DNA of 42,583 nt, from IMG/VR virus record IMGVR_UViG_3300032893_000119, positions 1 through 42,583 of that record; one strand, 5' to 3'. The notes below the pieces were generated by a model, which saw only the letters and a list, made by a program, of their open reading frames with translations, was not told where the DNA came from and made no database searches. The DNA is from a virus. Numbering within the stretch: the stretch's first letter is position 1; the number at the start of each line of letters is the position of its first letter. The position numbers and the translations under genes are program-made. This document shows, in pieces, positions 2,160 through 42,583 of the stretch.

Positions 2160-3815
2160 ATGTCGGTTGCGAACTTCGGCGCGTTCCTCGGAGGGCTCAC
2201 GCAGGGGCAGCAGAACGCGGAAAACCAGCGCGAGCGCGCTGCCTATCTGGCGATGATCCAGAAGCGGCAGAAGGACGCCGACGACGATGCGCAGGCCGGC
2301 AAGGATGCCCTCTTCGCGAACATCTTCGGCTCCGACAACATGCCGGCGCCCGTGGTGCAGCCGCCGACGACGCAGCCGCAAGCCGCGCAGCCCGGTCCGG
2401 CGCCGCAGCCGGGGCAGGCAAGCGTGCCGGCCGGCCCACCCCCCGGTGCAGGCGCCCCGCCGCAGCAAATGATGATGCCCGGCGCCACGCCCATGGGGCC
2501 GCAAGGCGGTCCGCCCCCTGGCGTCGGCATGCTGCCTCCGAGCCCGTACGCAGGTGCAGGCAACCCGATGGCTGCACCGAAGCCGGCGGCGCCGCCCGTG
2601 CCACAGCAAACCGGCGACGGCTATGAGCAGGCGAAATCCACGCTTGCGCAGATCAAGGAATTCCTCGATACGCCGGAAGCTGCGCAGATCGCGAAAGACC
2701 CGGCGCTCAAGGAAGCGCAGCAGCGCATGCACTCGTACATCGAGCAGCTTCGCAAGGCAGGTATCGACCCTTCGAACCCCGCAGCCGCGAAGCCCGATCC
2801 GATTCAGCAGAAGCGCCTGCAACTGCTGCACGAGGATGTGGGGCTCGCCGCTGCGGCAGCCGCCAAGCATGTGAGTGCGGACCGCACCGCACAGATGAAG
2901 TGGGGGCAGGAATTCGCGAACGTGCTCGTGCATCAAGAGAATGCCCGGCAGGCGATGAAGCGCGTCGAAGCGCAGCAGGCCGGCGCGACCGAGCGCGCAG
3001 GAATGAAGGGCAGTGGTAGCGGCAAGACCGATGCGCCAGCCTACGACGATCTGACGCCGGACAAGCGCACGTATGTGGAGAGCCTGATCAGCGCGTTTCA
3101 GCGCACGGGCAAGTTCCCCACCGGCACCGGGTACAACGATCCATTCAAAAAGACGGCGCTCGCTGAAATGGAGCGGCGCGGCATGGACATCAACGCTGGC
3201 GTGGGGAACAAGGCAGCAGACACCGCCGACGCAGGCACCATCAAGACGCTGACCGGGCGCAAGGGTGTGGTCGAAGAAACGTCGAAGATCATGCAGAACC
3301 TGGAGCCGCAGATCATGGACGTGGCGAAGCGCGTCATGGCGCAGCCCGGCATGTCCAGTTCGATGAAGTTGAACGAAATAGTTCAAGGTGCTCAGACCAA
3401 GTTCCGGGACAACGGAGATGTGCGGCAGTTGGTCAATCTGATGCAGGGTTGGAAGTCCGCCAATGCACGTCTGATGTCTCAGAACACAGGTGCCGGCGGC
3501 ACTCCGGTCTTCTCGCTCCACCGATCCGACGAACTTGCGAGCGGTGCCATGCCACTCAGTCAATTGGCCGGCGCGTTCAAGGCTGCGCAAACGGAACGTG
3601 AAGCGACCAAGAAAGGCTTGACCGACACGATCAACGAACATCAGTCAGCCATCGACAATCGCGGCAAGGGTGCAGGGTCGTCGAGCGGAGGTGCGATGTA
3701 CAAGACCAGCGATGGCAAGCAGTCGTTCAAGGCGAGCGATGTCGAGCGCGCAGCGAAAGCGGCAGGCATGACGGTTGAGGAATTCGCCAAGCGCAAGGGG
3801 TTGAGCGGTGGCTGA
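2160..3815 (+). CDS. Probable internal virion / DNA-ejection protein
   Basis: A 551-residue protein. The N-terminal helical stretch (QQNAENQRERAAYLAMIQ) is followed by a Pro/Gly/Ala/Gln-rich low-complexity linker at about residues 60-150. A long predicted-helical region fills the rest. It starts at ATG 2160, two bases after the upstream stop, with GGGAGG at 2148-2153 as ribosome site. Its end overlaps the next gene by 8 bases. Its location between a Q/N-rich virion protein and a transglycosylase virion protein supports an ejectosome component. No enzymatic motif was recognised. Confidence 0.55.
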   Translation: MSVANFGAFLGGLTQGQQNAENQRERAAYLAMIQKRQKDADDDAQAGKDALFANIFGSDNMPAPVVQPPTTQPQAAQPGPAPQPGQASVPAGPPPGAGAPPQQMMMPGATPMGPQGGPPPGVGMLPPSPYAGAGNPMAAPKPAAPPVPQQTGDGYEQAKSTLAQIKEFLDTPEAAQIAKDPALKEAQQRMHSYIEQLRKAGIDPSNPAAAKPDPIQQKRLQLLHEDVGLAAAAAAKHVSADRTAQMKWGQEFANVLVHQENARQAMKRVEAQQAGATERAGMKGSGSGKTDAPAYDDLTPDKRTYVESLISAFQRTGKFPTGTGYNDPFKKTALAEMERRGMDINAGVGNKAADTADAGTIKTLTGRKGVVEETSKIMQNLEPQIMDVAKRVMAQPGMSSSMKLNEIVQGAQTKFRDNGDVRQLVNLMQGWKSANARLMSQNTGAGGTPVFSLHRSDELASGAMPLSQLAGAFKAAQTEREATKKGLTDTINEHQSAIDNRGKGAGSSSGGAMYKTSDGKQSFKASDVERAAKAAGMTVEEFAKRKGLSGG

Positions 3816-6123
3816 CCAGCGCCTGCTGTACGAAGACACGGCGCGCAACGTCGCGTCGAAGTACGGCATTCCGCCGGACGTATTCGTTGCCATGATTGGA
3901 AAGGAATCCGGCTGGGACCCGGATGCTCAGGCGCCGGGCAGCACTGCGCACGGCCTGGGCCAGATGGTGAAGGGCACGGCGGCGCAGACCGGCACCAACG
4001 TCTACGATCCCGGGAGCCAGCTTGATGGCAGCGCTCGCTATCTGCGCCAGCAATACGACAAGTTCGGCGACTGGCATACCGCACTCGCGGCTTACAACCA
4101 AGGCCCGGGTGCAGCGCGCACGCCCGCCGGCCAGCAATACGCGAGGAACGTCATGGGCGGCAAGGACAGTTCAGTGGATGCGCTCCTGGCGCTTCCCGAT
4201 GTGGGCGAGAACGGTGATCATCCGCCAGAGGTGCAGTCGTTGCTCGCACTGCCCGATGTCGCGCCCGTGGCGGATACGTCGGACCCGAAGGGGAACATGG
4301 ACCCCCGCGACATCCGGCAGACGCAAGACTACGCGAACACCTTGGAGGAAGCCAAGCCGTCATGGATGGCGCGGGTCCGTCAAGGAATGACGGTCGGCGG
4401 ACCGGCGGGCCGCGCTGCACTGGAGCTTGCGCAGCCGGGCGTGGGCAACGCCGTTGCGCGCCGCGCGGTGCCTGTCGCAGTGGGTGCGCCTGGGGACTTC
4501 ATCGACTTCGCCGCTAACAAGGTGCCTCAATTCTTCGGCCGCGAGGGGCTTGGCGGGCATACAGGACTGCCGACTTCCGAAGATATCAGCGGCGTCTTGA
4601 GCCGGGCAGGGTGGGCGGATCAGCGCGATGCGCACCCGATCGCCAGCCAGATGGGCACTGCACTGGGCAGCGTGGTGCCGGTGGGTGAAGCGGCGCGTGC
4701 CGTGGTGAACCCCATCGTGCAGAAGACCGGGCAGGTGCTCGCCGACTACGGTGCCGGCGGGCAGATCGGCCGCGATATCAATCGGTTCGGGCAGCAAGTC
4801 GCAAACTTGGCGAACATGCGCCGCGCCAAGATCGTGGACGACGTACGTGCACCAGACGTAAAGCCGGGGCTGGCCCCCGTGCGTCAAGGCGAGGCGCCGA
4901 TCAAGCCGGCGGAAAACTGGAGCGTCGAAGGTCTGCCCGGCGTGCGCAAGGATGGGCGCCCCGCTGCACCGCAAGACCTCGATACCGAATTCGAGAACAG
5001 TGCGTTCGCGACCAAAGAGGGCATCAAGGCCGAGAAAACCGACATCCGCTCCACGATGGAGTGGCAGCGCATGACGAAGAAGCCGGAGGTGGACTTGGAG
5101 CCGATCAAGGATCACCTGACAGGTCTGATCGAAAACAGTGCAGGCCCCGGGCGCAAGGCAGCCATCGCGGCACGTCAGCACGTCGAAGAAATCGAGAACA
5201 TTCAAGATCCGGTTGCACGTTTCGAGCAGTTGGATCAGTTCAAGCGCGAACTGGCGAAGCGCGGCGGCTTCGAAGCCGGCACCGATGCCTCGGGCTACGC
5301 TGCGATTGCAGAAAAGCAGTCGCGCGAACTGCGCAACGTGGTGGATACCCAGTTGAAAGACTGGAAGCCATTCGAGAAATACACCACCGACTACGCGAAC
5401 GCGAGCGCGCAAGAGGCGAAGGCCAATTTCCTCAAGAATGTCGGCGAGCCCGAAAGCGGTGCTTCGTTCATGCGCGGTGCGTTCAAAGGCCCGAAGAATG
5501 TCGCGCTGGCAAAGAAAGCGCTCGGCGAGGGCGGCGATGCGAAGTTCGATGAAATGGCGAGCCACTACGTTGTGAGCCAGTTGCAAGGCAAGTCCGCCAG
5601 TGCCATCGAAAAGTGGAGCCTGAAGAACGAAGCCACGCTGCGCGAACTGCCACAAGCCGCACAGACCGTGCTGCGCATGCAGCAGCGCGCCGATCGCGTG
5701 CTCGCCGAGCAGGGGCTGTACGAAACAGCTTTGAAGCAGCATGCGACGAACCAAGCCATCGACGTGAGCGCCCTGACCGGTGCGCTCAATGCGCAGAAGT
5801 CGCAGGAAGCTGCCGAAGCTGCTGCACGCGCCACGGCACGATCGCTCACGCCGGCCATCACGGCGGTGCAGGTCGCGAAGACGCCCAAGGAACAAGCCAC
5901 GGCGATCGGCGGGTTGATCAATGAACTGCACGGCAAGGGCATGATCGACGACGCACAGTACAAGGTGTGGGCCGAGCAACTGTCGGCGATGCAGAAGTCG
6001 GCAAGCCGGCAGGCTGCACTTCAGACCATGGCGAAGTACATCAGCTATGCCGTCACCGGCAACTACCTTGTTTCGTTCGGCGGGCCGGCCGCTGCCAAGT
6101 ACATCGCTGCGGCTGCAAAATGA
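3808..6123 (+). CDS. Virion-associated lytic transglycosylase / ejection protein
   Basis: A 771-residue protein beginning with a soluble lytic transglycosylase (SLT) domain at about residues 8-110. It has the catalytic Glu33 in KESGW, the GLGQM motif at 49-53 and the AYNQG motif at 95-99. The rest is long and mostly helical, as expected for an ejected protein that crosses the periplasm. The start is GTG 3808, with AAGGGG at 3795-3800 seven bases upstream. Its likely job is local peptidoglycan cleavage during DNA entry. Its last residues are hydrophobic and Ala/Gly rich (YLVSFGGPAAAKYIAAAAK). It overlaps the next gene as ATGA. Confidence 0.85.
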   Translation: MADQRLLYEDTARNVASKYGIPPDVFVAMIGKESGWDPDAQAPGSTAHGLGQMVKGTAAQTGTNVYDPGSQLDGSARYLRQQYDKFGDWHTALAAYNQGPGAARTPAGQQYARNVMGGKDSSVDALLALPDVGENGDHPPEVQSLLALPDVAPVADTSDPKGNMDPRDIRQTQDYANTLEEAKPSWMARVRQGMTVGGPAGRAALELAQPGVGNAVARRAVPVAVGAPGDFIDFAANKVPQFFGREGLGGHTGLPTSEDISGVLSRAGWADQRDAHPIASQMGTALGSVVPVGEAARAVVNPIVQKTGQVLADYGAGGQIGRDINRFGQQVANLANMRRAKIVDDVRAPDVKPGLAPVRQGEAPIKPAENWSVEGLPGVRKDGRPAAPQDLDTEFENSAFATKEGIKAEKTDIRSTMEWQRMTKKPEVDLEPIKDHLTGLIENSAGPGRKAAIAARQHVEEIENIQDPVARFEQLDQFKRELAKRGGFEAGTDASGYAAIAEKQSRELRNVVDTQLKDWKPFEKYTTDYANASAQEAKANFLKNVGEPESGASFMRGAFKGPKNVALAKKALGEGGDAKFDEMASHYVVSQLQGKSASAIEKWSLKNEATLRELPQAAQTVLRMQQRADRVLAEQGLYETALKQHATNQAIDVSALTGALNAQKSQEAAEAAARATARSLTPAITAVQVAKTPKEQATAIGGLINELHGKGMIDDAQYKVWAEQLSAMQKSASRQAALQTMAKYISYAVTGNYLVSFGGPAAAKYIAAAAK

Positions 6124-14069: not shown

Positions 14070-14879
14070 TCAATAGTCTCCGCCGGGAGATTCGTCTTCA
14101 TCACCGTCGATGCACGACATACAAGGTTCGGGCGATGCAGCGTCCGAACCTGCAAAAGTTTCCCAGTTCCAGTGGCGTCCTAGACCCTTGACGTTTGCGA
14201 CCGGCGCCTGCCCTTCACCGGCCAATGCGCGGCGCTCCATCTGCACTGCTTTCCAATACAGCAGCGGATGCGTTTCAGCCAGCCACTTCACTTCGGGTTT
14301 GCGCGAGCTAGGGCAGTGCCAGCAAGCGGACTTTCCGGGCTGTTTAAGTCCAGCACGCACGATCGCGGCCACACATTCATCACGCGCCCACTTCCATTCG
14401 ATCAAAGGGTATTCCACTTGCAGGTGAGGTCGTTCGGGGATGGGTTTTTCCGACCGGTGGATTTCGCCAAAGTCGAAACCGACGAAATTGCGCACCTTGG
14501 TGACATCTCGTTCGGCCATCCACTTTTTCAGGTATCGCTGTTGAGGCTCCACCTTCCATTTCAAAGAGCACGACGAACGCCCGAATACCTTGGCTGGCAA
14601 CGTACCCAAGCGGAAGCATTCGCCGTACAAGGTGCCGTCCTTGATGCCTTGCGGCAATTCGTTGCGCACTACAGTGATCGGCGGAAACCCATTGTTCACA
14701 CACCACATTTGCATGGTCTTGAGGTGTTCGTAGGTTTCTGGCTTTTCGTCGCCTGTGTCCGCGAACATGATCAGGTCCGGGCGCATCGACCGTTCCTTCA
14801 TACCGATCAACATAGCGGTGCTGTTGGTGCCGCCGCCGTAGGAAACAACAATAGGGAGAGTCATGGTTGCGACTTTCAT
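14070..14879 (-). CDS. PP-loop ATPase, PAPS reductase-like
   Basis: A 269-residue protein with the PP-loop SYGGGTNSTA at 13-22, which binds ATP pyrophosphate in the adenine nucleotide alpha-hydrolase superfamily. FADTGDEKPETYEH follows, as in phage PAPS-reductase-like proteins. Conserved cysteines occur late in the protein (CWHCPSSR) and near the end (CMSC), possibly binding a metal or Fe-S cluster. Substrate unknown. Relatives adenylate substrates in sulfur transfer or base modification, including the DndC type, but no other DNA-modification gene is recognisable here. It starts at ATG 14879, overlapping the upstream stop as ATGA; ATG 14864 is an alternative. Confidence 0.75.
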   Translation of the reverse strand: MKVATMTLPIVVSYGGGTNSTAMLIGMKERSMRPDLIMFADTGDEKPETYEHLKTMQMWCVNNGFPPITVVRNELPQGIKDGTLYGECFRLGTLPAKVFGRSSCSLKWKVEPQQRYLKKWMAERDVTKVRNFVGFDFGEIHRSEKPIPERPHLQVEYPLIEWKWARDECVAAIVRAGLKQPGKSACWHCPSSRKPEVKWLAETHPLLYWKAVQMERRALAGEGQAPVANVKGLGRHWNWETFAGSDAASPEPCMSCIDGDEDESPGGDY

Positions 14880-18910: not shown

Positions 18911-20503
18911 TCAGACAGGCGTGCCAATCTGCACTTCCTTGACGTTCCCCGGGCTCGGGTCGGTCGGCCAAGTCGTGTAGTTCGCCGTGTACGTGCCCGG
19001 TGCAAGCAGCGTCGGGTCGCTCCACTGGTTCGCCGTCGCGTTGCCGAAGCGGTACGCCACGCCCGACGATGCCGTCACCGTGAACGTGTTCGGCGTGTCG
19101 TTCTCATACACGACGTGCGTCCAGTTGCCCCAGGTGACCGGGGGCGGGATGTAGTCGCCGACCGTCACCTTGTTCAGCGCTTCAAGGTCTTCAAGGATGC
19201 GATTCGCAAGCGCGGTGCCCCAGGCGTAATCGCCGTAAGGCAGCGGGTGATCCGGCGGGACGCCGTACATCATGTCGTAGCTGCCGGTCGGCACGCCGCC
19301 GTTGTCACTGTCCGTCACGCCGGTCCACGGGGACTCGAACATCGCATTGAGGTCGATGAAGCGAATCGATCCATCGTTCTTTGCCGCGATCATGGCAGCC
19401 GTCGCAGTGTTCAGGTCCACGGCATCCGGCTCGACGGTCAGGTACTCGTGCGTATCCATCAGCCCCGGCACGATGATGATTGCGTCGGGGTTGTTACCCT
19501 TCACGTAGTCGATCATGTCGCGCATCGCATCCACGATGCCTGCCATCCCAGGATTCGCGGAGCCGCTCGGGTTCGTCCATCCGTTCACGTGGCCGGTGTC
19601 GTAGTCGTTCCACGACAGCGGCATGACATAGATGTCCGGATTGCAGCGGTCGATATCCGCTTGCCGGTCGCTGTAGTAGCCCATCGGCCACGGCCGGTCG
19701 ATCGCACCTGTGCCGCCGATCGATCCGTTCCACAGCGCCGTTTCGAGCCCCATCTGTGCGAAGCACACCGACCAGATACCATCGCCGCTCGGGCCGTTGC
19801 GACCCTGCCCGTGCGAGTCGTGCATGACGAACACGCGCAGCGGATCGTTGCGAGGCGCAAACACTTGGCTCGCGTCTTTCACGTAGATGCCACCAAACAC
19901 GCCCACATCAAAGAATGGTGCCGACGTGGTATCGGGATTCTTGATCAGCGGCTGGAGCCGCACTCGGCGATGCTTGAACGTCGGCGTACCGCCCGTGTTG
20001 AATGCATAGGTGTAGTAGGCCCAGCCGGTGCCAGTCTGCATCGACGCGCCCAGGCCGGTTGTCGCCAGCTTCATGATGCCGTCCGCATCTTCGACGAAGA
20101 GGCGGAAGTCGTGGTTCTGCTCGAACTTGACGACGAAGTCCACGCCGTCCACGACGAAATCGAAGAACCCATTCTGCGCACCCAGTGTGTGAGGCGTGGT
20201 GCTCAGGTCGGTCGTGACGACATCCAGAAGCACGCCGCTGATCGAGCCGCTTCCTGCATGCACCGCCGGGCTTCCGCCGCAACAGTTCCACGGCGCGACA
20301 GCGGGGCCGCTCGCGTGGATGCTCGCGGCATCATAGAAACGGGTGTAGGGACTCGACGGCGCCGTGGTGAGTGCGTAGGTATTGGACGGCTGGAAATCAG
20401 CGCTCTGCACCGTTTCCTGGCCCAGGTTGAAGCGGTTTCGCGGACCGGCAACACCTGCTCGGGCAAGAACCTGCGCAAGCACCTGCAATTGAACTGAAGA
20501 CAT
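18911..20503 (-). CDS. SGNH/GDSL hydrolase with flanking beta-rich domains (spike or depolymerase-like)
   Basis: A 530-residue protein. Residues 1-220 are beta-rich and could be a binding or jelly-roll domain. An SGNH hydrolase follows with Ser230 in VMHDSHGQG and Asn299 in PLSWND. The C-terminal His is probably His419 in PPDHPLPYGDYAW; there the Asp is adjacent rather than three before, so the last block is atypical. Residues 445-530 form a small beta domain. ATG 20503 has GGAG seven bases upstream. Hairpins lie before it and a terminator after it, so it is a discrete unit inside the replication arm. Deacetylation of surface polysaccharide is the usual role of such phage proteins, but expression with early genes is odd. 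Confidence 0.7.
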   Translation of the reverse strand: MSSVQLQVLAQVLARAGVAGPRNRFNLGQETVQSADFQPSNTYALTTAPSSPYTRFYDAASIHASGPAVAPWNCCGGSPAVHAGSGSISGVLLDVVTTDLSTTPHTLGAQNGFFDFVVDGVDFVVKFEQNHDFRLFVEDADGIMKLATTGLGASMQTGTGWAYYTYAFNTGGTPTFKHRRVRLQPLIKNPDTTSAPFFDVGVFGGIYVKDASQVFAPRNDPLRVFVMHDSHGQGRNGPSGDGIWSVCFAQMGLETALWNGSIGGTGAIDRPWPMGYYSDRQADIDRCNPDIYVMPLSWNDYDTGHVNGWTNPSGSANPGMAGIVDAMRDMIDYVKGNNPDAIIIVPGLMDTHEYLTVEPDAVDLNTATAAMIAAKNDGSIRFIDLNAMFESPWTGVTDSDNGGVPTGSYDMMYGVPPDHPLPYGDYAWGTALANRILEDLEALNKVTVGDYIPPPVTWGNWTHVVYENDTPNTFTVTASSGVAYRFGNATANQWSDPTLLAPGTYTANYTTWPTDPSPGNVKEVQIGTPV

Positions 20504-20526
20504 TAAAAAACTCCGTTGGGTTAAAT

Positions 20527-20564
20527 GCACCGGCTCACGGTGCCTGCACTGCGGCTTCCGCCGC
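20527..20564 (-). other. Two hairpins ahead of the minus-strand SGNH gene
   Basis: GCACCG (20527-20532) pairs with CGGTGC (20538-20543), and GCGGC (20551-20555) pairs with GCCGC (20560-20564). Both lie in the 64-bp gap between the upstream stop and the SGNH start. The first is followed on the minus strand by ATTTAA. They may be a weak terminator or an mRNA processing or stability element. Confidence 0.5.
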
Positions 20565-20567
20565 AAT

Positions 20568-21944: not shown

Positions 21945-22106
21945 TCAGACCCTCCCTTGATCCGGCTTGCCGTTGCGCCAGTTCTGAAGCCCCCGTGCAT
22001 ACCGGCCGGCGGCTTTTTGTTTGGCAGTCTTGCCCGTGCCGTCGCCTTGCTTGTGCTTGCGACCCGGTCCTTTCTTGCGGAAGTGGGCGTTTTTCGTGTC
22101 GGTCAT
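21945..22106 (-). CDS. Small very basic protein
   Basis: A 53-residue protein starting MTDTKNAHFRKKGPGRKHKQ, with about a third Lys, Arg and His. It is likely nucleic acid binding. The start ATG 22106 follows a GAGGAAACGACATC leader of the type seen before other early genes and overlaps the upstream stop as ATGA. Its own stop is two bases before the clamp-like gene start. Confidence 0.6.
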   Translation of the reverse strand: MTDTKNAHFRKKGPGRKHKQGDGTGKTAKQKAAGRYARGLQNWRNGKPDQGRV

Positions 22107-22489
22107 GATGTCGTTTCCTCGGTTGTTTCAGTCTTGGTGTCGGGGTTCCTCGGAAAGTTCCCCCCGGGATAGGCAGCATCGACGATCAATGCTGCGATGG
22201 CTTGCGCGTACGGCACCCCGAACGAGTTCGCTCGCTCATATTCGGCCACGGTGCACCGCACGCGCAATTGCGTCCCCAGGCCGTCGCGGAAGCGCCGGCC
22301 CGGGTTGATGTAGTCGAACGCGCGCTCGGTGGGCGTGCGCTTGAGCAGCTTGCGCACGACCACGCTCGCGGTGATCTTCGCTCGCAGGTTCTCAGGAATG
22401 CGCGAGCGCACCTGCTCGACGTACACCTCCAGCATGGCCGCGATGTGCGGCCTCAACTGGAGTGTCAACAGCTTGGGGAAGTTGTTCAT
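22103..22489 (-). CDS. Hypothetical early protein
   Basis: A 128-residue protein. Its first 70 residues are helical and basic (LRPHIAAMLEVYVEQVRSRI, AKITASVVVRKLLKRTPTE). The tail is Thr/Glu rich. A DNA-binding role (ribbon-helix-helix-like strand plus helices) is possible but weak. ATG 22489 overlaps the upstream stop as ATGA. Confidence 0.55.
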   Translation of the reverse strand: MNNFPKLLTLQLRPHIAAMLEVYVEQVRSRIPENLRAKITASVVVRKLLKRTPTERAFDYINPGRRFRDGLGTQLRVRCTVAEYERANSFGVPYAQAIAALIVDAAYPGGNFPRNPDTKTETTEETTS

Positions 22490-22689
22490 TGCCCGTTCAC
22501 CATCTGCGCAAGCCGGGACATGTCGCGCATGTAGTGCTCGCACTGCTGCTGCGAGCCGCTGTACACCACGCGCGCATGCACCGGCTCCTGTCCCGCCGGG
22601 CATGACAGCAGCATGCTCCCGGTCGGTTCGAAGTGTTTGCGCACGTGCTGCACGTATACGACGTGCCTGCGCTCGATCGAGTTATCCAT
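22486..22689 (-). CDS. Small hypothetical early protein
   Basis: A 67-residue protein beginning MDNSIERRHVVYVQHVRKHF. It has two Cys separated by about 25 residues (LSCPAG, QQQCEH) and an alpha/beta appearance. ATG 22689 lies 8 bases inside the upstream gene end. Function unknown. Confidence 0.5.
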   Translation of the reverse strand: MDNSIERRHVVYVQHVRKHFEPTGSMLLSCPAGQEPVHARVVYSGSQQQCEHYMRDMSRLAQMVNGQ

Positions 22690-22918: not shown

Positions 22919-23033
22919 TGATTTGCTCCTTTGTGCATTGGTTGAGTGGTTTCGTGTGTTGAGGTTCCGTCCAGACCAGAAGAAAAATCATGAACAGCAC
23001 ACTCGCGGCTGCTGCGACATATGAGACGTTCAT
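22884..23033 (-). CDS. Small single-pass membrane protein (49 aa)
   Basis: Starts MNVSYVAAAASVLFMIFLLV, giving one strong transmembrane helix from about residue 4 to 21, then a hydrophilic tail of 28 residues with one Cys. GAGGA is seven bases before ATG 23033, and the start overlaps the upstream stop as ATGA. It is part of a run of tiny membrane proteins. Confidence 0.6.
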   Translation of the reverse strand: MNVSYVAAAASVLFMIFLLVWTEPQHTKPLNQCTKEQINERDTAQHQRP

Positions 23034-23155
23034 GTCATCTTCCTCAAGGTCGGTTGCTTGATCGGCTCGTGCTTTGCGCACGTGTTCTGCCCGGCGTAGA
23101 TGCCGAATGCGAACCCGAGCGCCGCGCACAGAAAGGTATGGATCAACAGTTTCAT
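23030..23155 (-). CDS. Small membrane or exported protein (41 aa)
   Basis: Starts MKLLIHTFLCAALGFAFGIY, a short basic start followed by a hydrophobic stretch, then AGQNTC and a charged tail. The AGQNT region could be a signal peptidase site, or the stretch could be a membrane anchor. Both ends overlap neighbours as ATGA. No function is known. Confidence 0.55.
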   Translation of the reverse strand: MKLLIHTFLCAALGFAFGIYAGQNTCAKHEPIKQPTLRKMT

Positions 23156-23259
23156 GACTGGCTCCGCTTGATCTGCACGATGACTCGTGCCATGTCGAAA
23201 AGGATTCCGCCGATCGTGGCAAGCACCATCAGCGGTAGAACGTCGGCAAGGTCAGTCAT
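23152..23259 (-). CDS. Tiny membrane protein (35 aa)
   Basis: The sequence MTDLADVLPLMVLATIGGIL continues into FDMARVIVQIKRSQS: one hydrophobic helix followed by a basic end. It overlaps both neighbours (ATGA downstream, 8 bases upstream). Its reality rests on gene packing and on the similar neighbours. Confidence 0.5.
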   Translation of the reverse strand: MTDLADVLPLMVLATIGGILFDMARVIVQIKRSQS

Positions 23260-23395
23260 GGTCGATGCTCCCGCAATCGCACGAAGCGCCGATGTCGATG
23301 ATGGCTCCGATGATCAGCATGACGATCCCAGCGACCGGGCCGAACAAGGTGCCGCAAAGCGCAGCCGCGATGCACGCGATGATGGTGAATTTCAT
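23252..23395 (-). CDS. Small membrane protein with CDCG tail (47 aa)
   Basis: Starts MKFTIIACIAAALCGTLFGP and continues through a second hydrophobic run (VAGIVMLIIGAII), ending GASCDCGSIDHD. It could be two short helices or a lipoprotein-like signal, though no clean lipobox is seen. GGGGGTG precedes ATG 23395. The start overlaps the upstream stop as ATGA. Confidence 0.5.
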   Translation of the reverse strand: MKFTIIACIAAALCGTLFGPVAGIVMLIIGAIIDIGASCDCGSIDHD

Positions 23396-23487
23396 ACTGC
23401 ACCCCCAATGGATGCGTAGAGCGCTGCAATCACGAGCACGAGCCACAGCGCCATGGCGCTCAGCACGATGTAGACAAGATATTGCAT
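23392..23487 (-). CDS. Tiny membrane protein (31 aa)
   Basis: Sequence MQYLVYIVLSAMALWLVLVI followed by AALYASIGGAV, almost entirely hydrophobic. AGGAGA lies eight bases before ATG 23487, a good ribosome site, which supports real translation. It overlaps the downstream gene as ATGA. Confidence 0.55.
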   Translation of the reverse strand: MQYLVYIVLSAMALWLVLVIAALYASIGGAV

Positions 23488-23499
23488 GGTGTATGTCTC

Positions 23500-23661
23500 C
23501 TAGAGCAAGGCTTCGCCGGTCGCTTGGCTCAACGCCAGCATTCGCCGGAATTCGGTGGCGGTGAGGGGTCGCTGTGCCATGGCATGCCGAAGGGCTTCCA
23601 GTTCCTTGCGCAGGGTTGCGAGGCGGTTCGATGCGGGCGTGGCAGGTGCGGGGCGGTTCAT
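23500..23661 (-). CDS. Small helical protein (53 aa)
   Basis: A 53-residue protein starting MNRPAPATPASNRLATLRKE. It has a basic helical centre and no membrane segment. The leader CAACCAAGGAAACGCACC before ATG 23661 is a strong ribosome site shared in form with other early genes. The 96-bp gap upstream holds a 31-bp repeated regulatory element, so this may start a transcript. Confidence 0.55.
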   Translation of the reverse strand: MNRPAPATPASNRLATLRKELEALRHAMAQRPLTATEFRRMLALSQATGEALL

Positions 23662-23720
23662 GGTGCGTTTCCTTGGTTGCAGGTAATAGGGTGGTAGCGT
23701 GGTGGGCGGAAAACGGCTCC

Positions 23721-23751
23721 TAGGTGCCGAATTCCGGTTTTCTGTAACAGA
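23721..23751 (-). promoter_or_regulatory. 31-bp regulatory element, copy A
   Basis: Read on the minus strand it begins TCTGTTACAGA and ends GGCACCTA. It matches 25 of 31 positions of an element at 25826-25856 that lies in the opposite orientation. Both copies are intergenic in the early arm. It contains the near-palindrome CTGTAACAG at 23742-23750. Confidence 0.55.
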
Positions 23752-23757
23752 GTTGTA

Positions 23758-23985
23758 TCAATCGCCGTGGATCGTGTGCACGACCATAGCGACGGCGCCG
23801 CTGAAGATCACTCCCCAGTTATGGAGGATGTGCTCAATCAGCAGGGTCATGATCCCTTCCCGGAAACCGTGCGCAAGCGCAGCGGCTTCGCTCGGGAAAG
23901 TCCGAACGAGAGTAATCGTCACGGTCAGAGTCACGACAGTGACAGCAGCGCGCTTGAGGTGCGGTGGATGAATGTAGAAAGCCAT
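23758..23985 (-). CDS. Two-helix small membrane protein, holin-like size (75 aa)
   Basis: A 75-residue protein with two hydrophobic stretches: AAVTVVTLTVTITLV at about 13-27 and a second about 20 residues long near 50-70 (HILHNWGVIFSGAVAMVV). AAAGGG precedes ATG 23985. Its size and topology would suit a holin or antiholin, but it sits in the early arm, away from the endolysin. A membrane effector or superinfection-exclusion protein is equally possible. Confidence 0.5.
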   Translation of the reverse strand: MAFYIHPPHLKRAAVTVVTLTVTITLVRTFPSEAAALAHGFREGIMTLLIEHILHNWGVIFSGAVAMVVHTIHGD

Positions 23986-24022
23986 CGGTGTAGGCCCTTT
24001 CTTGGTTGCGGGTTTGAGGGGT

Positions 24023-24067
24023 GGGCATCATGCCCCGTATGTCCCCTGTGTCAATCAAGGGACATAC
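24023..24067. promoter_or_regulatory. Paired palindromes in the 97-bp gap at 23986-24082
   Basis: GGGCAT (24023-24028) faces ATGCCC (24030-24035) around one base. Directly beside it, GTATGTCCC (24037-24045) faces GGGACATAC (24059-24067) with perfect 9-bp arms and a 13-base spacer. The second contains an ACATACA motif at 24062-24068. No T-run follows on the minus strand, so operators are more likely than a terminator. Confidence 0.5.
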
Positions 24068-24082
24068 AGGATTGACGCTGGC

Positions 24083-24352
24083 TCAGTCCCCGGTGTAGGT
24101 GAACGGGTTTGCCTCGCACCGGTAGGCGTCCCCTGTTGCCATCTGATGGCTGACCCGGGCATAGTCCTGAGCCGCGATCGCATGCGAGCGCATGTAGGCG
24201 GCGAGCCCCTGCATGCCTGCGCGCTCGGCTTCGTGCATCTCGTGCCTGAACGTGCGTGCACGGTCGGCCCAGTAGCAGCGGGTGTTCTGGTGGATGCGCG
24301 CGCACTCGCGCTCGCGTTCGAAGGGGTCGAGATCGTTGTAAGGGTAGGTCAT
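24083..24352 (-). CDS. Hypothetical early protein
   Basis: An 89-residue protein starting MTYPYNDLDPFERERECARI, rich in Arg, His and Tyr, helical and hydrophilic. AGGAG is six bases before ATG 24352. The start overlaps the upstream stop as ATGA. Function unknown. Confidence 0.55.
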   Translation of the reverse strand: MTYPYNDLDPFERERECARIHQNTRCYWADRARTFRHEMHEAERAGMQGLAAYMRSHAIAAQDYARVSHQMATGDAYRCEANPFTYTGD

Positions 24353-24579
24353 GATTCGCTCCTGAGGCCACATGCGCGCAGGAACGCGCGCCGATCGAGT
24401 GCGTAATACTGCGCGTAGTAGCGCGCGGCGTCTGTCGCTTGGTAGGCGTCCGAACGGGCGCGCTGGTAATCCGCATCTTTGAGGTTCGGCGTCGAAAGCA
24501 ATTGAAGCGGGCGTTCGATCGCGGCTTTGAGTGCGCGGGCGCGCTTGGCTTCGTACAAAGCGAGAGTGATCCGGGTCAT
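24349..24579 (-). CDS. Hypothetical early protein
   Basis: A 76-residue basic helical protein starting MTRITLALYEAKRARALKAA. The leader CCAAGGAAGCACC before ATG 24579 is a variant of the shared early leader. Tyr-rich stretch ARYYAQYYAL near residue 58. Function unknown. Confidence 0.55.
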   Translation of the reverse strand: MTRITLALYEAKRARALKAAIERPLQLLSTPNLKDADYQRARSDAYQATDAARYYAQYYALDRRAFLRACGLRSES

Positions 24580-24638
24580 GGTGCTTCCTTGGTTTGGGTG
24601 GGTGAGGTGCCCCCGCTGGTGTCGCGGGGGCTGGTGGA

Positions 24639-25646
24639 TCAGGCAGTCAGCAGCGCAGCCGCGCGATTCTTGAGGTCGTCGCCAGCGCCGAACCAAGCCG
24701 AATTCATGCGGTTGTCGGCAGAGGTGGCGCGCATCTTATGGTCGGCGTACTCCGTGACCGCGTTAAGGAACCCCCATGCAGTGCCCTTGACGCCGTCGAT
24801 GCTTGCACCTTTGGCTTCGCCGTTGAACAGGGACAGGATCGACTGGAACGCGCGCGACTCGCTCACCTTAGTGACTGCCTCAAGCTGGGGCAGCGCCTTG
24901 TCCTTCTCCGTGGCAAGCAGGTTGAACAGGATCACCTCTGCACGGTCCCGGGAAATCTGGCGGTCGGCCAAGCGCCGCGCCTTGTCGGTGAACTGAGCGA
25001 ACGAGTCGTCATGGATCAGGCCGAGCGCTGCGGCCATCTTGTCAGCGTCGTAGCGCGAGCGGTGCGACACGGCAAGCACGGTGCCATCCTTCGCACCCAT
25101 GGCCATCGACAGGGTGTTATTGCACACCACGCGCACCGTGGTCTTTTTCCCCGTGGTCTTCAGCGTGCCGTCCGTGGCAGTCACGAGCAGCGTATAGCCG
25201 CGCACGTTGTCCCCGGGGACGATATCCGCTGCTTCACCCTCGAAACTCGCCAGAGCCCAAAACCGGCGCCCGCCGAACAAGGTACCGGCAGTCTCGATTT
25301 CGTAACCTTGCTGGCGCGCCTCATGCGCCAGCGTCTCGAGAATCTGGCGCGGCTGCACGACCTTGAACGAGTCGGAGACGATCGCAAGCGGCGCTTTCGT
25401 GTCGGAGCGCATCAGGACGTGTTGATCTGGCATCGACGCCCAATGGTCCGCCCCTTGATCCCGGCCGGTCGCATAGCGCACGACGCCGCGTTGGATGCGC
25501 CAGTCCATGCCGGCAGCGACCGCGATTTCGTCAATCGACGCGCCGCGCGGGAGGATGGCATGGTTGGTTTCGCCGAAGTGCCACTCCTTGCGAGTGGACA
25601 TCATTTCGTATTGACCGTTGGCGCGTTGCGTGATTTCGTGAGACAT
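24639..25646 (-). CDS. DUF932 phage/plasmid-like protein
   Basis: A 335-residue protein matching the DUF932 (phage/plasmid-like TIGR03299) pattern. It has an early W-x-I-x segment (GMDWRIQRGVVRY), the central block HVLMRSDTKAPLAIVSDSFK and KVVQPRQILETL. The C-terminal end has GTAWGFLNAVTEYADH and SAWFGAGDDLKNRA. Members are widespread in phages and plasmids; the molecular role is not settled. The start is ATG 25646 after AAGGAAA. It is the first large gene of the early arm and probably strongly expressed from promoters in 25647-25995. Confidence 0.8.
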   Translation of the reverse strand: MSHEITQRANGQYEMMSTRKEWHFGETNHAILPRGASIDEIAVAAGMDWRIQRGVVRYATGRDQGADHWASMPDQHVLMRSDTKAPLAIVSDSFKVVQPRQILETLAHEARQQGYEIETAGTLFGGRRFWALASFEGEAADIVPGDNVRGYTLLVTATDGTLKTTGKKTTVRVVCNNTLSMAMGAKDGTVLAVSHRSRYDADKMAAALGLIHDDSFAQFTDKARRLADRQISRDRAEVILFNLLATEKDKALPQLEAVTKVSESRAFQSILSLFNGEAKGASIDGVKGTAWGFLNAVTEYADHKMRATSADNRMNSAWFGAGDDLKNRAAALLTA

Positions 25647-25753
25647 GATGGTTTCCTTAGTTGAGTTCGACCAAGCGCGGTTAGCGCTTGTCGGGGTGTG
25701 CACCGGGTGAGCCCCCGGGGGCCGCTGCGATCAGCGTGAAGAGAGTATATGCC

Positions 25754-25797
25754 ACATACAGACCGATTCCCGGATTCGGGGGAATAAACAACATACA
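25754..25797. promoter_or_regulatory. Compound module: two ACATACA motifs around an inverted repeat
   Basis: ACATACA at 25754-25760 and at 25791-25797 flank a TTCCC...GGGAA inverted repeat centred on GGATTC. A closely similar arrangement occurs at 26704-26740 (ACATACA, TTCCCCCGATTACGGGAA, ACATACA). Both copies point in the early transcription direction, which suggests a protein-binding unit. Confidence 0.6.
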
Positions 25798-25825
25798 GAA
25801 TAGTAGGTTACAGCCCGGGTTTTAT

Positions 25826-25856
25826 TCTGTTACAGATTCCGGGAATATGGCACCTA
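25826..25856 (+). promoter_or_regulatory. 31-bp regulatory element, copy B
   Basis: Begins TCTGTTACAGA and ends GGCACCTA on the plus strand. It shares 25 of 31 positions with 23721-23751, which lies in reverse orientation. The central part here is a perfect ATTCCGGGAAT palindrome. Confidence 0.55.
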
Positions 25857-25924
25857 CAAGCCACGGGGAGGGGTCGAAGCCACTACCGCACCGGGGCAGG
25901 GGCGATCGGAGATTGTGGGTGCCT

Positions 25925-25957
25925 TAAAACGCGGAATCACTGTTTTGGTGCGTTTTA
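25925..25957. other. Inverted repeat downstream of the regulator gene
   Basis: TAAAACGC (25925-25932) and GCGTTTTA (25950-25957) form an 8-bp stem with a 17-base loop, about 40 bases after the stop of the regulator gene on the minus strand. It is A/T rich at its ends, so it could end the regulator transcript or serve as an operator. Confidence 0.4.
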
Positions 25958-25995
25958 TAAAAGATCAGGGTTTTATGTGATTTTGCGTATGTAGC

Positions 25996-26454
25996 TCAGT
26001 TGACGTGGAAAGTAAGGGTAGGGTCCCAGGTTTCGGCCATGACTGCACGGAGAGCCGGGTGCCGTTCCACCATAGCGAACACGAGTGCTTGACAGCACTG
26101 ACTGCGGGTGATTGCGAGAGTGCGGGCCATGCGGTCCAGAGCAGTCAACTGGACCGGATCGAGATGAAGCACCAGCGGGCGGTTATGCGGACGTTTGGCG
26201 GACGGGTGCTTGGCAGCGGCAATCGAACCTGCGCGTAGTTTCTTCGGACGCCGCACCAGCGGCGCGGTTGCATGTTTGATGGCGTGCGGGGTTGTAACCG
26301 TTCGCGGATCATTATTGGCGAGGACTTGCACCAGCGTGCGCATGACTGCCGGAGGCTGCATCAATTTTGATTGCGGATTCTTGCGGTGCAAGAGTTCGCC
26401 GAGACGCGCCAAAGCCTGTATGTGTGCGATGCGAAGACTGACTGAGATTTGCAT
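25996..26454 (-). CDS. Putative tandem ribbon-helix-helix DNA-binding regulator
   Basis: A 152-residue basic protein with two segments that look like ribbon-helix-helix units. The first is MQISVSLRIAHIQALARLGE plus a second helix near PAVMRTLVQVL. The second is RPLVLHLDPVQLTALDRMAR plus TRSQCCQALVFAMVE. They are joined by a Lys/Arg/Pro-rich linker. Each has a short beta strand followed by two helices, as in Arc/CopG proteins. Two units in one chain would act as a built-in dimer. It sits at the head of the early arm beside the repeated motifs, so it is the natural candidate to bind them. AAAGG precedes ATG 26454. Confidence 0.55.
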   Translation of the reverse strand: MQISVSLRIAHIQALARLGELLHRKNPQSKLMQPPAVMRTLVQVLANNDPRTVTTPHAIKHATAPLVRRPKKLRAGSIAAAKHPSAKRPHNRPLVLHLDPVQLTALDRMARTLAITRSQCCQALVFAMVERHPALRAVMAETWDPTLTFHVN

Positions 26455-26545
26455 GATTGGAACCTTTCAAAATTGAGGATTATCACGGAATCCGATCATT
26501 ATTGACCAAGACCAAAGGCCCAAAAATTTTGTCGCGTCCGATGAC

Positions 26546-26740
26546 ACATACAAGGATCGCGCGTCGTATCTATTAATCAATATTGATTGGATAGATAGGA
26601 TAGAGGGGTGCAGTCTCCAATGAAAAGCCGGTATCACACATACAAATTTTTGAGGTGAAACTTGCCTAGCAGTGCAGGATAGTCGGCCCTTTAAGCCACA
26701 CACACATACAAATTCCCCCGATTACGGGAAGTGACATACA
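26546..26740 (-). promoter_or_regulatory. Left-facing TGTATGT motif array (four copies)
   Basis: ACATACA on the plus strand (TGTATGT leftward) at 26546-26552, 26638-26644, 26704-26710 and 26734-26740. The last two flank TTCCCCCGATTACGGGAA. Three of the four are preceded by CAC, giving TGTATGTG when read leftward. All face the early arm. Confidence 0.65.
26575..26588. promoter_or_regulatory. Perfect 14-bp palindrome
   Basis: AATCAATATTGATT is an exact inverted repeat in an A/T-rich patch between two TGTATGT motifs and about 120 bp upstream of the regulator gene start. Typical size and symmetry for a dimeric repressor operator. Confidence 0.55.
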
Positions 26741-26786
26741 GACCCCGCTATCACGAAAAAGTATCCCGATTTCCGCGATTCTGAGG

Positions 26787-26793
26787 TGTATGT
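26787..26793 (+). promoter_or_regulatory. Right-facing TGTATGT motif
   Basis: First copy in the region that reads TGTATGTG on the plus strand, facing the late arm. The orientation switch from left to right therefore falls between 26740 and 26787. Confidence 0.55.
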
Positions 26794-26821
26794 GTTCTAG
26801 TGCTCCGTCGCGTCCCAGGCA

Positions 26822-26855
26822 ATCAGAATTAACGAATGAGGCGATCAGAATTAAC
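26822..26855. repeat. Two direct repeats ATCAGAATTAAC
   Basis: Exact 12-bp copies at 26822-26833 and 26844-26855, 22 bp apart start to start (two helical turns). Same face of the helix, as in iterons or activator sites. Confidence 0.7.
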
Positions 26856-26883
26856 AAACTCGACGAAGCGCGGGAGGGACGGG

Positions 26884-26899
26884 GGGAAAAAATTTTCCC
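26884..26899. promoter_or_regulatory. A/T-tract palindrome
   Basis: GGGAAAA and TTTTCCC arms (7 bp) separated by AA. Could be an operator, a bend, or a DNA-unwinding element of an origin. Confidence 0.45.
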
Positions 26900-26906
26900 G
26901 GCCCAC

Positions 26907-26941
26907 TTCCAAAATGTCCCGTCATTTTTCCAAAAAGTCCC
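26907..26941. repeat. Two direct repeats TTCCAAAAWGTCCC
   Basis: 14-bp copies at 26907-26920 and 26928-26941 differ at one base and are 21 bp apart start to start. A second pair with two-turn spacing beside the first pair. Confidence 0.65.
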
Positions 26942-26962
26942 AAAATCTGGATAGTGATCCCC

Positions 26963-26978
26963 TGTATGTCTTGTATGT
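26963..26978 (+). promoter_or_regulatory. Two right-facing TGTATGT motifs
   Basis: Copies at 26963-26969 and 26972-26978, nine bp apart start to start, both facing the late arm about 200 bp before its first gene. Confidence 0.6.
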
Positions 26979-27064
26979 GGGAGTTACACTTCCGTGGCGT
27001 GCAGACAACACAATTCAGTTGTACACTGTCTTCGGTTTCCTCCTCTACCCTCCTCGGGTCTTGG

Positions 27065-27139
27065 CCCCGGACCCTTCAAAGGTTCGGGGAACTTTCTTCG
27101 CCGCTTGCAAAATTGCAAGTGCCGGGGAACTTCCCGGCA
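27065..27139 (+). other. Three consecutive hairpins in the late leader
   Basis: 27065-27089: CCCCGGACC with GGTTCGGGG, one mismatch. 27104-27119: CTTGCAA with TTGCAAG, perfect. 27120-27139: TGCCGGG with CCCGGCA, perfect. None is followed by a T-run. They would form a structured 5' leader about 40-110 bases before the first late start codon, possibly for stability, attenuation or antitermination. Confidence 0.5.
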
Positions 27140-27178
27140 GGTGCAGAATCCATGCTTTCACCACCCCCGGAGAAACGC

Positions 27179-27394
27179 ATGACGAACCCCTTGCCAGACA
27201 CCCGCCCCCTCTTCGCGACTTTCAGCCTCGACAGTGCAGAAGTGGATTTGCTGATCGCCGCTGTCGAATACGTGGACAGTCACGCCACATACAACACGGC
27301 AGCTTATCGAACGTTGCAGGCTCGACTCCAGAACGTGAAGCAGAACGCTTTCGGGAAACGCAGTGTGAAGACCGGCGATGAGCACCCAATCTGA
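27179..27394 (+). CDS. Small protein ahead of the large terminase
   Basis: A 71-residue protein starting MTNPLPDTRPLFATFSLDSA, alpha-helical and mixed charge (DLLIAAVEYVDSHATYNTAA). GGAGA lies six bases before ATG 27179. It is the first gene of the late arm and overlaps the terminase start by 17 bases. The position is that of a small terminase, but it is much shorter than usual. It could be a trimmed or unrelated small protein. Confidence 0.5.
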   Translation: MTNPLPDTRPLFATFSLDSAEVDLLIAAVEYVDSHATYNTAAYRTLQARLQNVKQNAFGKRSVKTGDEHPI

Positions 27395-29360
27395 CACCGC
27401 CGCGCTGGTCCTCGAACTCACCAACGATCCGGTGCTGGCGAACCGCCTCTTGTTCCCGCACCGGCATCCGGTGGAGTCGGCCGCGTTCCATCCGCGCATG
27501 ATCGCGGCGTACATGTCGGCCCTGCCCCAGGTGCTGGTGAAGGCGTTCCGGGGCTCGGCCAAGTCAACCACGGCCGAGGAGGTCATGGTGCAGGGTGCGG
27601 TGTTCGGGGGGTTCCGCTACGGGCTGATCGTGGGAAGCACCTACGACCGGGCGGTGGACCGCCTCGCCACGATCAAGCGCGAGTTGGAATTCAATCCGAA
27701 GCTGCTCACGATGTTCGGTGGGCTGGAGGGCTCCTCGTGGGGTGCGGAGAAGCTGATCCTGGCGAACGGGTGCATGCTTCGCGCGATCGGGCGCGGGCAG
27801 TCGGCCCGGGGCCTGAAGGAAGAGACGACGAACAGCAGGCCCGACTTCGCGTTCTTCGACGACCTTGAAGAGGAAGAGACGGGCGACCACAAGCGCCCGG
27901 TCGATGGGCTCGCGGTGTGGCGCTGGATCACGCGGGTGCTGGTGCCGGCGATGGCGGAGGACAGGCAGCCGCGCATCCGCTGGGCAGGCACGCCGCTGGG
28001 CGAGAACAGTGCGCTGGAGATGGCGGCGGCGTCTCCCGACTGGCGCACGCTCACGGTGCCGCTGTACGTCGGCGACTTGACCGAGCGCGATCCGGCAAGG
28101 ATCGAGCCGACATGGCCCGCGCTCTGGCCCGCCGGGAAGTGTCTCGCGCTGCGCGACCGCTACGAGCGTGCGGGGGACTTGGCGGGGTTCAGCCAAGAGT
28201 TTCTGTGCCGCTCGATCGACAATCAGGTGCGGCCGTTCCGGCAGGAGACGATCCACGTGGTGAGCCCGAAGAGCAGCTTCCGGCCGAAGACGCTCATCGT
28301 GGACCCGGCACGCACGACGAACGCGAAGAGTGCGCGCACCGGCTACGTCGTCACTTCCTGGCTCGGGAACGTCTTGCAGGTCCACCACGCGCAGGGTGCG
28401 TACCACACGCCGGCCGAGCAGGTGACGAACATCTTCGACTTGGCGCGGGTTTTCAACCCGGGGCTGATCGCCGTCGAGAAGGATGGGCTGGAGGAGTGGC
28501 TGATGCAGCCGCTGCGCGCCGAGATGGTGAAGACCGGCGACGTGCTGCCGATCGAGGGGATTCGCGCTCCGAAGGACAAGATTGCGTTCATCGGCGGGCT
28601 GCAACCGTTCTTCAACGCGGGCGAGGTGCTGTTCGCCCGGGACTTCCCGGACTTGACGAAAGAGTTGCTGGCGTTCCCCTACGGGCTGAAGGACATCGCC
28701 AATGCGCTGGCGTACGCGGTGCGGTTGCGGCCCGGCAGCCCGATCTACCCGGGCTTCACCGAGGACCACATCCAGCCGTTCGTTCCGAGCCCGCTGCGCG
28801 CGACGATGTACCTCGCGATGAATGCGACGCCGGGGCTGCTCGCCGCCGCGCTGGTCGCGGTGCAGGACGGCCGCGTGCACGTGCTCAGGGACTGGGTGCG
28901 CGAAGGCACGATGGCGGACATGTTGCAGGTGATCAGCATGGACATCGGGAACACGCAGACGCCCACGATCGTGATCCCGGGCGACCGGGCGAGCCCGACC
29001 GATGGTGCGGGGCTCGGCGTGGCGCTCCAGCGCGCAGGCGCCCGGTTCGTCACGAGCGCGCGCACGGTCGAGTCGGTGGAGTGCCTGACGGACATCATGC
29101 GCCAGACGTTGGGCGGGCTGCCACGGTTCACCGTGGCGCCGGACGCGGTATGGACGCTGAACGCGCTGGCCGGCGGCTACTGCCGGGAAGCCACGGGTGC
29201 GGTTATCCTTGCGCCAAAGGACGGAATCAGCAAGACGATCGCACAGGCTCTTGAAACGCTCGGACGTACCGCCATCTCCACCACATTGGTCGAATCCGAG
29301 AACTTTGGAACTAACGCACTGACACGCGGCGGTTCACCCTTCAGGAGCTTGAGGCGATGA
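27378..29360 (+). CDS. Terminase large subunit
   Basis: A 660-residue packaging motor. Walker A variant FRGSAKSTT at about 57-65 (Gly-Ser-Ala-Lys-Ser), Walker B with catalytic acid DFAFFDDLEEEE at 156-167. The C-terminal nuclease begins with TLIVDPART near residue 305 and continues through further acidic strands. It starts at ATG 27378 inside the upstream gene, ends overlapping the next gene as ATGA. It cuts and pumps phage DNA through the portal. The Lys in the P-loop is kept, so the motor should be active. Confidence 0.9.
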   Translation: MSTQSDTAALVLELTNDPVLANRLLFPHRHPVESAAFHPRMIAAYMSALPQVLVKAFRGSAKSTTAEEVMVQGAVFGGFRYGLIVGSTYDRAVDRLATIKRELEFNPKLLTMFGGLEGSSWGAEKLILANGCMLRAIGRGQSARGLKEETTNSRPDFAFFDDLEEEETGDHKRPVDGLAVWRWITRVLVPAMAEDRQPRIRWAGTPLGENSALEMAAASPDWRTLTVPLYVGDLTERDPARIEPTWPALWPAGKCLALRDRYERAGDLAGFSQEFLCRSIDNQVRPFRQETIHVVSPKSSFRPKTLIVDPARTTNAKSARTGYVVTSWLGNVLQVHHAQGAYHTPAEQVTNIFDLARVFNPGLIAVEKDGLEEWLMQPLRAEMVKTGDVLPIEGIRAPKDKIAFIGGLQPFFNAGEVLFARDFPDLTKELLAFPYGLKDIANALAYAVRLRPGSPIYPGFTEDHIQPFVPSPLRATMYLAMNATPGLLAAALVAVQDGRVHVLRDWVREGTMADMLQVISMDIGNTQTPTIVIPGDRASPTDGAGLGVALQRAGARFVTSARTVESVECLTDIMRQTLGGLPRFTVAPDAVWTLNALAGGYCREATGAVILAPKDGISKTIAQALETLGRTAISTTLVESENFGTNALTRGGSPFRSLRR

Positions 29361-42477: not shown

Positions 42478-42583
42478 ATGGAAGTCGAACACGTTTTTTG
42501 TGACGGCGTTTATTGCAAACGCTGTTTTTTCGAAAGAGGAGAAAAAGATGTTCAGCATGCCCATACTTTTGCCCATCTCTCCG
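42478..42583 (+). CDS. Small cupin-fold protein, 5' part (continues at 1-303)
   Basis: ATG 42478 with GAGGTG six bases upstream begins MEVEHVFCDGVYCKRCFFER. The frame runs off the window end and continues after the 22-bp repeat to 303. The first cupin motif (His27, His29, His33) is split across the join. See the entry at 1-303 for domains and role. A second ATG at 42548 in another frame has an even better ribosome site (AGAGGAG) but opens a 71-residue frame without recognisable features. Confidence 0.75.
   Translation, partial: MEVEHVFCDGVYCKRCFFERGEKDVQHAHTFAHLS
42562..42583. repeat. Right copy of 22-bp terminal direct repeat
   Basis: Identical to bases 1-22. Matching stops exactly at 22 bases. 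The interrupted cupin gene closes in frame when one copy is removed, which supports circular closure. Confidence 0.9.

Follow-up and report, generated by a model that had tools for sequence, protein, structure and literature searches.

The IMG/VR virus record IMGVR_UViG_3300032893_000119 (42,583 bases; hereafter referred to as the window) contains an array of the heptad TGTATGT at the divergence of its two gene arms. The window is probably a complete circular assembly, because its last 22 bases (42562–42583) repeat its first 22 (1–22). The genes recognized on the minus strand encode a helicase, a PolA-type DNA polymerase, a clamp-like protein, a PAPS reductase and a DUF932 protein, and those on the plus strand encode a terminase, a portal, a capsid, a lysozyme and an endolysin-like protein. 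The early (leftward) and late (rightward) arms diverge at about 26.45–27.18 kb. Nine intergenic heptads, together with one inside the gene at 25996–26454 (−; hereafter RHH-B), occupy the control region that separates the leftward early/replication arm from the packaging/structural genes on its right, and the rightward structural genes begin with that for the terminase large subunit (27378–29360, +).

The heptad array and its conservation

TGTATGT occurs 16 times on the two strands of the 42.6-kb contig, as compared with 1.34 expected, and none of 100 shuffled sequences contained at least 16 copies, which bears out the enrichment asserted by the original prediction. Thirteen copies fall within 23.4–27.3 kb and three beyond; among the 33 heptads with at least five copies in this interval, all of which were tested, none is as strongly concentrated there. 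In the intergenic stretches 25704–25995 and 26455–27179 (1,017 bases in all), TGTATGT is the commonest heptad, with nine copies, whereas second-order Markov simulation of these bases gave a mean of 0.16 and a maximum of 3 in 2,000 runs. When the choice of word is allowed for, some heptad reached at least nine copies in 25 of the 2,000 simulations (p about 0.0125). The array is real and specific.

Two copies lie upstream of the DUF932 gene (25754–25760 and 25791–25797, both −), and the divergent region contains those at 26546–26552, 26638–26644 and 26704–26710 (all −) and 26787–26793 (+), as well as the copy at 26734–26740 (−), whose position, strand and flank (GACATACAGNCCNCG) are kept in the closest relative (position 3600 of locus L024, described below). 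Two more are located upstream of the late genes (26963–26969 and 26972–26978, both +). The gaps between these copies are irregular (2, 23, 30, 46, 59, 85 and 169 bp and more). The copy at 24062–24068 (−) forms one arm of a strong hairpin (24037–24068, −26.2 kcal/mol, with GTATGTCCC and GGGACATAC as its arms) that separates two small leftward genes, and may for this reason belong to a separate element. All ten copies originally listed are correct in coordinate and strand, as are the three given as exceptions (23490, 27287 and 32225), of which the 23490 copy, read by eye, apparently has a ribosome-binding site on one side and a start codon on the other. However, three exact copies had been overlooked, at 14117 (−), 42164 (+) and 26417–26423 (+), the last within the RHH-B gene. 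The flanks of the ten listed copies agree with their earlier description, with a pyrimidine before the word in nine and a G after it in six; G or C follows in nine, and the flanks are otherwise little patterned. A T at offset −50 in nine of the ten sites exceeds the 95% limit of random sets and a T at +11 in eight is just at that limit, in sites that overlap each other.

The original prediction held that the heptads face outward, left-facing copies lying in or before the leftward operon and right-facing copies ahead of the rightward one. This pattern is perfect for the ten chosen copies (p 0.018–0.019), but it is lost once all copies are counted: with the 26417 copy, which faces right inside the leftward operon, 10 of 11 are outward (p 0.07–0.09), and across the whole genome 12 of 16 (p 0.44–0.45). 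Two CGTATGT variants, at 24036 and 25986, likewise face right within the leftward arm. Because the ten-copy set was chosen and significance fades with all copies, the outward orientation is unproven.

We sampled relatives by a capsid scan (33 loci), a terminase profile (best 80 of 237) and a DUF932 scan (80 of 114 loci kept); single-protein scans with terminase or helicase, and a capsid query against genome contigs, found none. The 91 terminase-bearing loci, including the window, were reduced to 65 with 1,500 bases upstream and to 52 after removal of duplicates. The closest relative is IMGVR_UViG_3300030410_000037, an incomplete contig of 20.7 kb represented by loci L042, L024, L127 and L141, with 79% (capsid), 65% (portal) and 52% (terminase) identity to the window. 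In the 52 regions upstream of terminase, we counted nine heptads in the window, two in this relative (L042), one in each of three others and none in 47. The core GTATGT occurs ten times in the window, five times in L042, twice in two regions, once in eleven and not at all in 37. The five cores of the relative lie in 1,143 intergenic bases, where 0.6–0.7 are expected (P 0.0005–0.0015), in the strand order −, +, +, +, −.

Alignment of the control regions of the window and L024 revealed three collinear blocks: TCTCCAATGAAAA, the block GACATACAGNCCNCG with its heptad, and a stretch of 39 bp around GGGACGGGGGGAAAAAA (the G-run block). The heptad in GACATACAGNCCNCG has the same strand in both phages and lies 119 versus 121 bp from TCTCCAATGAAAA and 143 versus 153 bp from the G-run block. 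Because of these blocks, one heptad is, by alignment, conserved in place and strand in the closest relative, without conservation of the entire array. The expectation that the motif positions recur in related phages thus stood for a single position in this relative and failed across the wider family.

Across whole records, TGTATGT was found in 16 of 20 relatives, with at most five copies per record and no array, and loci L009–L220 never have more than two copies within 1 kb. The pattern GGGACGGGGGGAAAAA matched nine viral stretches, one of which (L127) is the known relative. Three new stretches, L221–L223, match the anchor-plus-heptad pattern with identical spacing; we attribute them to chance, because they have 35% G+C and none of 12 window queries matched them at E 1e-3. 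Some other lineages have different repeated words upstream of terminase: CGTGCCAG occurs six times in L010, further words recur at least four times in each of L070, L049, L069 and L035, and the remaining regions show weaker or low-complexity enrichment. In L010, which belongs to another lineage, the stretch 4360–4567 upstream of terminase comprises six same-direction copies of a 20-mer ending in CGTGCCAG, partly with a 28-bp period, along with GGTTACA repeats.

RHH-A, a candidate binder of the heptads

The original prediction named RHH-B, a presumed ribbon-helix-helix (RHH) protein, as the possible binder. Its leader holds part of the array and its model contains the strand-helix-helix motif twice, albeit at poor quality (predicted local distance difference test score (pLDDT) 45). 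An element specific to a small phage group and bound by an RHH protein remains the best reading, but RHH-B is no longer the best candidate for that protein. RHH-A (22103–22489, −; 128 residues, with a start codon that we chose within the open reading frame 22103–22603) is the better candidate, because a homologue is present in the one relative that shares the motif and none of RHH-B was detected there (L042/L024, an incomplete contig). Profile comparison detected no relation between the two proteins, and all matches of either to Pfam, NCBIfam and PHROGs were insignificant.

RHH-A is predicted to contain two RHH units in one chain. Its N-terminal unit matches the L042 homologue over 56 residues (BLASTP 1e-6), and each of the two genes adjoins a clamp-like gene. 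'Clamp-like' is our label for a gene with another best PHROG, the RusA-like resolvase (E 1.5e-22); the polymerase processivity factor is second, and there is a weak Pfam beta-clamp match (E 0.0025). In the two-row alignment of RHH-A and its homologue, identity is centred on LLTLQLRPH and LRVR, which are identical and correspond to the two predicted strands. Searched against the records of 14 relatives, this alignment matched only that of L024, the source of one of its rows; there was no match in the other 13, all classed as linear and maybe fragments, and the other searches for RHH-A homologues likewise revealed none besides that of L042.

The best AlphaFold model of RHH-A (pLDDT 74.7) has two strand-helix-helix units (E6–12/H14–30/H41–48 and E73–79/H81–88/H94–106). 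Its Foldseek ranks 1–11 are all chains E, F or G of F-plasmid relaxosome structures, of 102–120 residues (probability 0.98–1.00, E 0.0045–0.098, template modelling (TM) score 0.45–0.49 by query), and they are separated by a clear gap from later hits, with a probability of 0.57 or less. In a VIA structural alignment to a relaxosome chain, the Z score is 7.8 and the root-mean-square deviation (r.m.s.d.) 2.5 Å over 80 residues, at 13–16% identity. The table does not name these chains; their size, together with the three molecules of TraY that PMC12117103 describes, leads us to regard them as TraY. In that account, TraY is a monomer with a whole RHH dimer fold that inserts its two strands into the major groove, the usual mode of RHH dimers, and at oriT TraY1 and TraY2 are in direct and TraY3 in inverted orientation (PMC12117103). 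RHH-A, as predicted, likewise has the two RHH units of a TraY-type pseudodimer in one chain. The two-row profile matched no chain among PDB sequences at E 10.

Operator function and rival explanations

We tentatively propose, at somewhat less than even odds, that the TGTATGT array comprises asymmetric operators for a TraY-like RHH-A pseudodimer that would control the divergent early/late region. TGTATGT, with the core GTATGT, would be the word recognized by a DNA-binding protein that the phage itself encodes, and this binder would be RHH-A, a single chain with two different RHH units. Because its two units would form a pseudodimer, RHH-A could read a short non-palindromic word in either orientation and in several copies, as the TraY fold would allow. 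Such a single-chain, two-strand reader, on the predicted fold, fits TGTATGT better than a homodimer that reads palindromes, and needs no uniform orientation. Early expression would raise the level of RHH-A, its occupancy would repress the leftward leaders, and occupancy would also remodel the architecture of that region of divergence, allowing rightward late transcription to take over. Early repression with late switching would be the most likely function of operators at this divergence; the direction of regulation, as well as heptad binding itself, is inferred.

Several known systems offer parallels. The F-plasmid TraY resembles the proposed system in the predicted fold of RHH-A and in short sites present in several copies, direct and inverted (PMC12117103). 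However, the phage array sits at an early/late divergence, no relaxase was recognized among the 27 distinct window open reading frames scanned with Pfam, and the two-row profile of RHH-A gave no sequence match to a PDB chain. In phi29, the early proteins p4 and p6 switch transcription and bind in the interval that separates early from late promoters, as proposed here for RHH-A, whereas p4 recognizes an inverted repeat with A-tracts (PMC3100819). In the phage array as in the pSM19035 system, a 7-bp word is repeated in mixed orientation. The ParB protein of pSM19035 is also called omega. It is an RHH protein that acts as a dimer and requires four or more contiguous heptads (PMC9499535); by contrast, the closest pair in the phage array is separated by 2 bp and the others by at least 23 bp.

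A number of observations weigh against RHH-A as the reader of the heptads. The link between protein and motif rests on their co-occurrence in two phages, and the array was missing from the other lineages of the family among the terminase-upstream regions and whole records counted. The BLASTP match to L042 is confined to the N-terminal unit, the homology is weak outside this pairwise test (phmmer 0.0045 and 0.0083) and tblastn did not confirm it. The five models, built from a two-row alignment, reached pLDDT values of 74.7, 66.5, 41.3, 39.2 and 38.8, only two of them confident; no Foldseek hit had an E value of 0.001 or better, with r.m.s.d. values of 5–8.5 Å, and Z scores below 8 can come from a common arrangement. 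The exact heptad nearest to the RHH-A gene, at 23490, is about 1 kb away, and among all copies in 23.4–27.3 kb 10 of 13 are outward (p 0.43–0.49). The only RHH-A family matches with a function name, both insignificant and over the same stretch, are Pfam 'Phage late-transcription coactivator' (E 0.075) and PHROG 'late promoter transcriptional regulator' (E 0.32). We give these late-transcription labels no weight in either direction, save that RHH-A is possibly a coactivator acting without recognition of the heptad; RHH-B or a host factor could bind the word instead.

An autoregulatory operator array for RHH-B is unlikely, though it is the strongest of the alternatives. Autoregulation of leaders is common, four heptads lie upstream of RHH-B in the divergent region and one inside its gene, its low-confidence model has two strand-helix-helix units and it has a PHROG transcriptional-regulator match, albeit an insignificant one (E 0.2). 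The failure to detect a homologue in the motif-sharing 20.7-kb contig, the poor model and the lack of a profile match to RHH-A argue against it. Slightly less credit goes to replication-origin iterons, which would be bound by an initiator on either side of an AT-rich stretch. Lambda-type and plasmid iteron origins share with the array short repeats close to such a stretch, here the AT-rich ATCAATATTGATTGGATAGATAGG, which has heptad 26546 on one side and 26638 on the other. Moreover, 13 consecutive TAG/TAA triplets, resembling the DnaA-trio of bacterial origins, adjoin the shared 13-bp anchor TCTCCAATGAAAA in L024 (3438–3476, −). However, the heptads are irregularly spaced in contrast to those origins, no initiator was recognized in the Pfam scan, the window lacks any run of at least five TAG/TAA-type triplets, the minimum of its cumulative GC skew falls near 22 kb rather than at 26.7 kb, and no DnaA box (at most one mismatch to the consensus) occurs in the control regions of the window, L024 or L010. 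Some iteron origins have neither a DnaA box nor a skew change at the site.

An RNA-level element, UGUAUGU in both leaders, acting in processing, translation control or antitermination, is improbable: most intergenic copies are on the sense strand of the operon that they precede and two heptad pairs flank a small hairpin, but the 26417 and 23490 copies are antisense to their operon, orientation overall is not significant and is mixed in L024, the hairpins are weak (about −8 kcal/mol) and Rfam gave no match at E 1 or less in 23000–28000. Least probable, to the point of near dismissal, is a promoter element, either −10/−35-like or for a phage RNA polymerase. Its upstream placement and the TAT within the word would suit such an element, yet 25650–27400 contains one sigma-70-like site (−35/−10 hexamers at 16–18 bp) as compared with 1.3 expected by chance, the strongest flanking columns are the T at −50 and T at +11 rather than anything like these hexamers, and no RNA polymerase family was recognized among the 27 open reading frames; the promoter proper that had been suggested is therefore unsupported. 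A scan of the window for the consensus of integration host factor sites gave no support, LexA boxes and sigma-54 sites were weighed by eye alone and not adopted, and the likeness of GTATGT to the yeast splice site is irrelevant to a phage.

If RHH-A does read the heptads, the fold of TraY, which in this comparison comes from the relaxosomes of conjugation, would enter phage gene control, and the window would provide a compact example of early-to-late switching in an uncultured phage family in which no clear sigma-70 promoter or phage RNA polymerase was recognized. The listed titles of the open-licence literature include no report of a phage TraY-like protein or of an RHH-controlled early/late switch. 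A broader possibility, which we consider speculative and rather unlikely, is that a single-chain RHH protein of the TraY type and irregular asymmetric heptads serve as the early-to-late switch of a lytic phage family, in which the repeat set at this divergence differs from lineage to lineage. With the chromosomal-type parS between inverted GTATGTCG arms and the origin-like triplet run in the module of the nearest relative, the control region may bring together signals for transcription, replication and segregation.

Other elements of the control region

The dyad TTCCC-N8-GGGAA occurs at just two sites in the whole window, each between two heptads: 25767–25784, with 6-bp gaps, and 26713–26730, with gaps of 2 and 3 bp and inverted relative to the first. 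The latter overlaps, in the alignment, a palindrome of L024 (3578–3593) that lies between inverted GTATGTCG arms with 6-bp gaps, as in the first window dyad, and perfectly matches the chromosomal parS consensus (TGTTCCACGTGAAACA). Neither the window nor any other contig represented by loci L009–L118 contains a perfect match, and the window has one three-mismatch site only, at chance level. The common geometry of parS and dyad in L024 and the window is suggestive, resting on two cases. No host-type parS in phages is reported among the listed open-licence titles, and a phage with a host-type centromere site is worth following.

Of the other aligned blocks, the anchor TCTCCAATGAAAA (26614–26626), common to the window and L024, has an E value of 0.059 by itself, whereas the 39-bp block with GGGACGGGGGGAAAAAA (26857–26895) is 87% identical in L024 upstream of terminase (BLASTN E 5e-9). 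This block is partly kept in L010 (GGACGGGGGGAAA, 4594) and is a candidate packaging (cos/pac) site or late leader. The DUF932 gene (24639–25646, −), whose start was set by alignment to L042, is also common to L024, with 63–64% identity. Farther into the leftward arm, the polymerase/clamp-like interval contains a weak match to the GDSL lipase/acylhydrolase family (18911–20566, E 1e-4, below the Pfam cut-off).

The sequence TAGATAGGATAGAGG at 26592–26606 also occurs in L010 and L017, in both upstream of a leftward open reading frame, and in L051, with a close variant in L194; more relatives carry it than carry the heptad array. Finally, 26817–26858 comprises two tandem 20-bp copies of AGGCRATCAGAATTAACRAA, a possible second type of operator.

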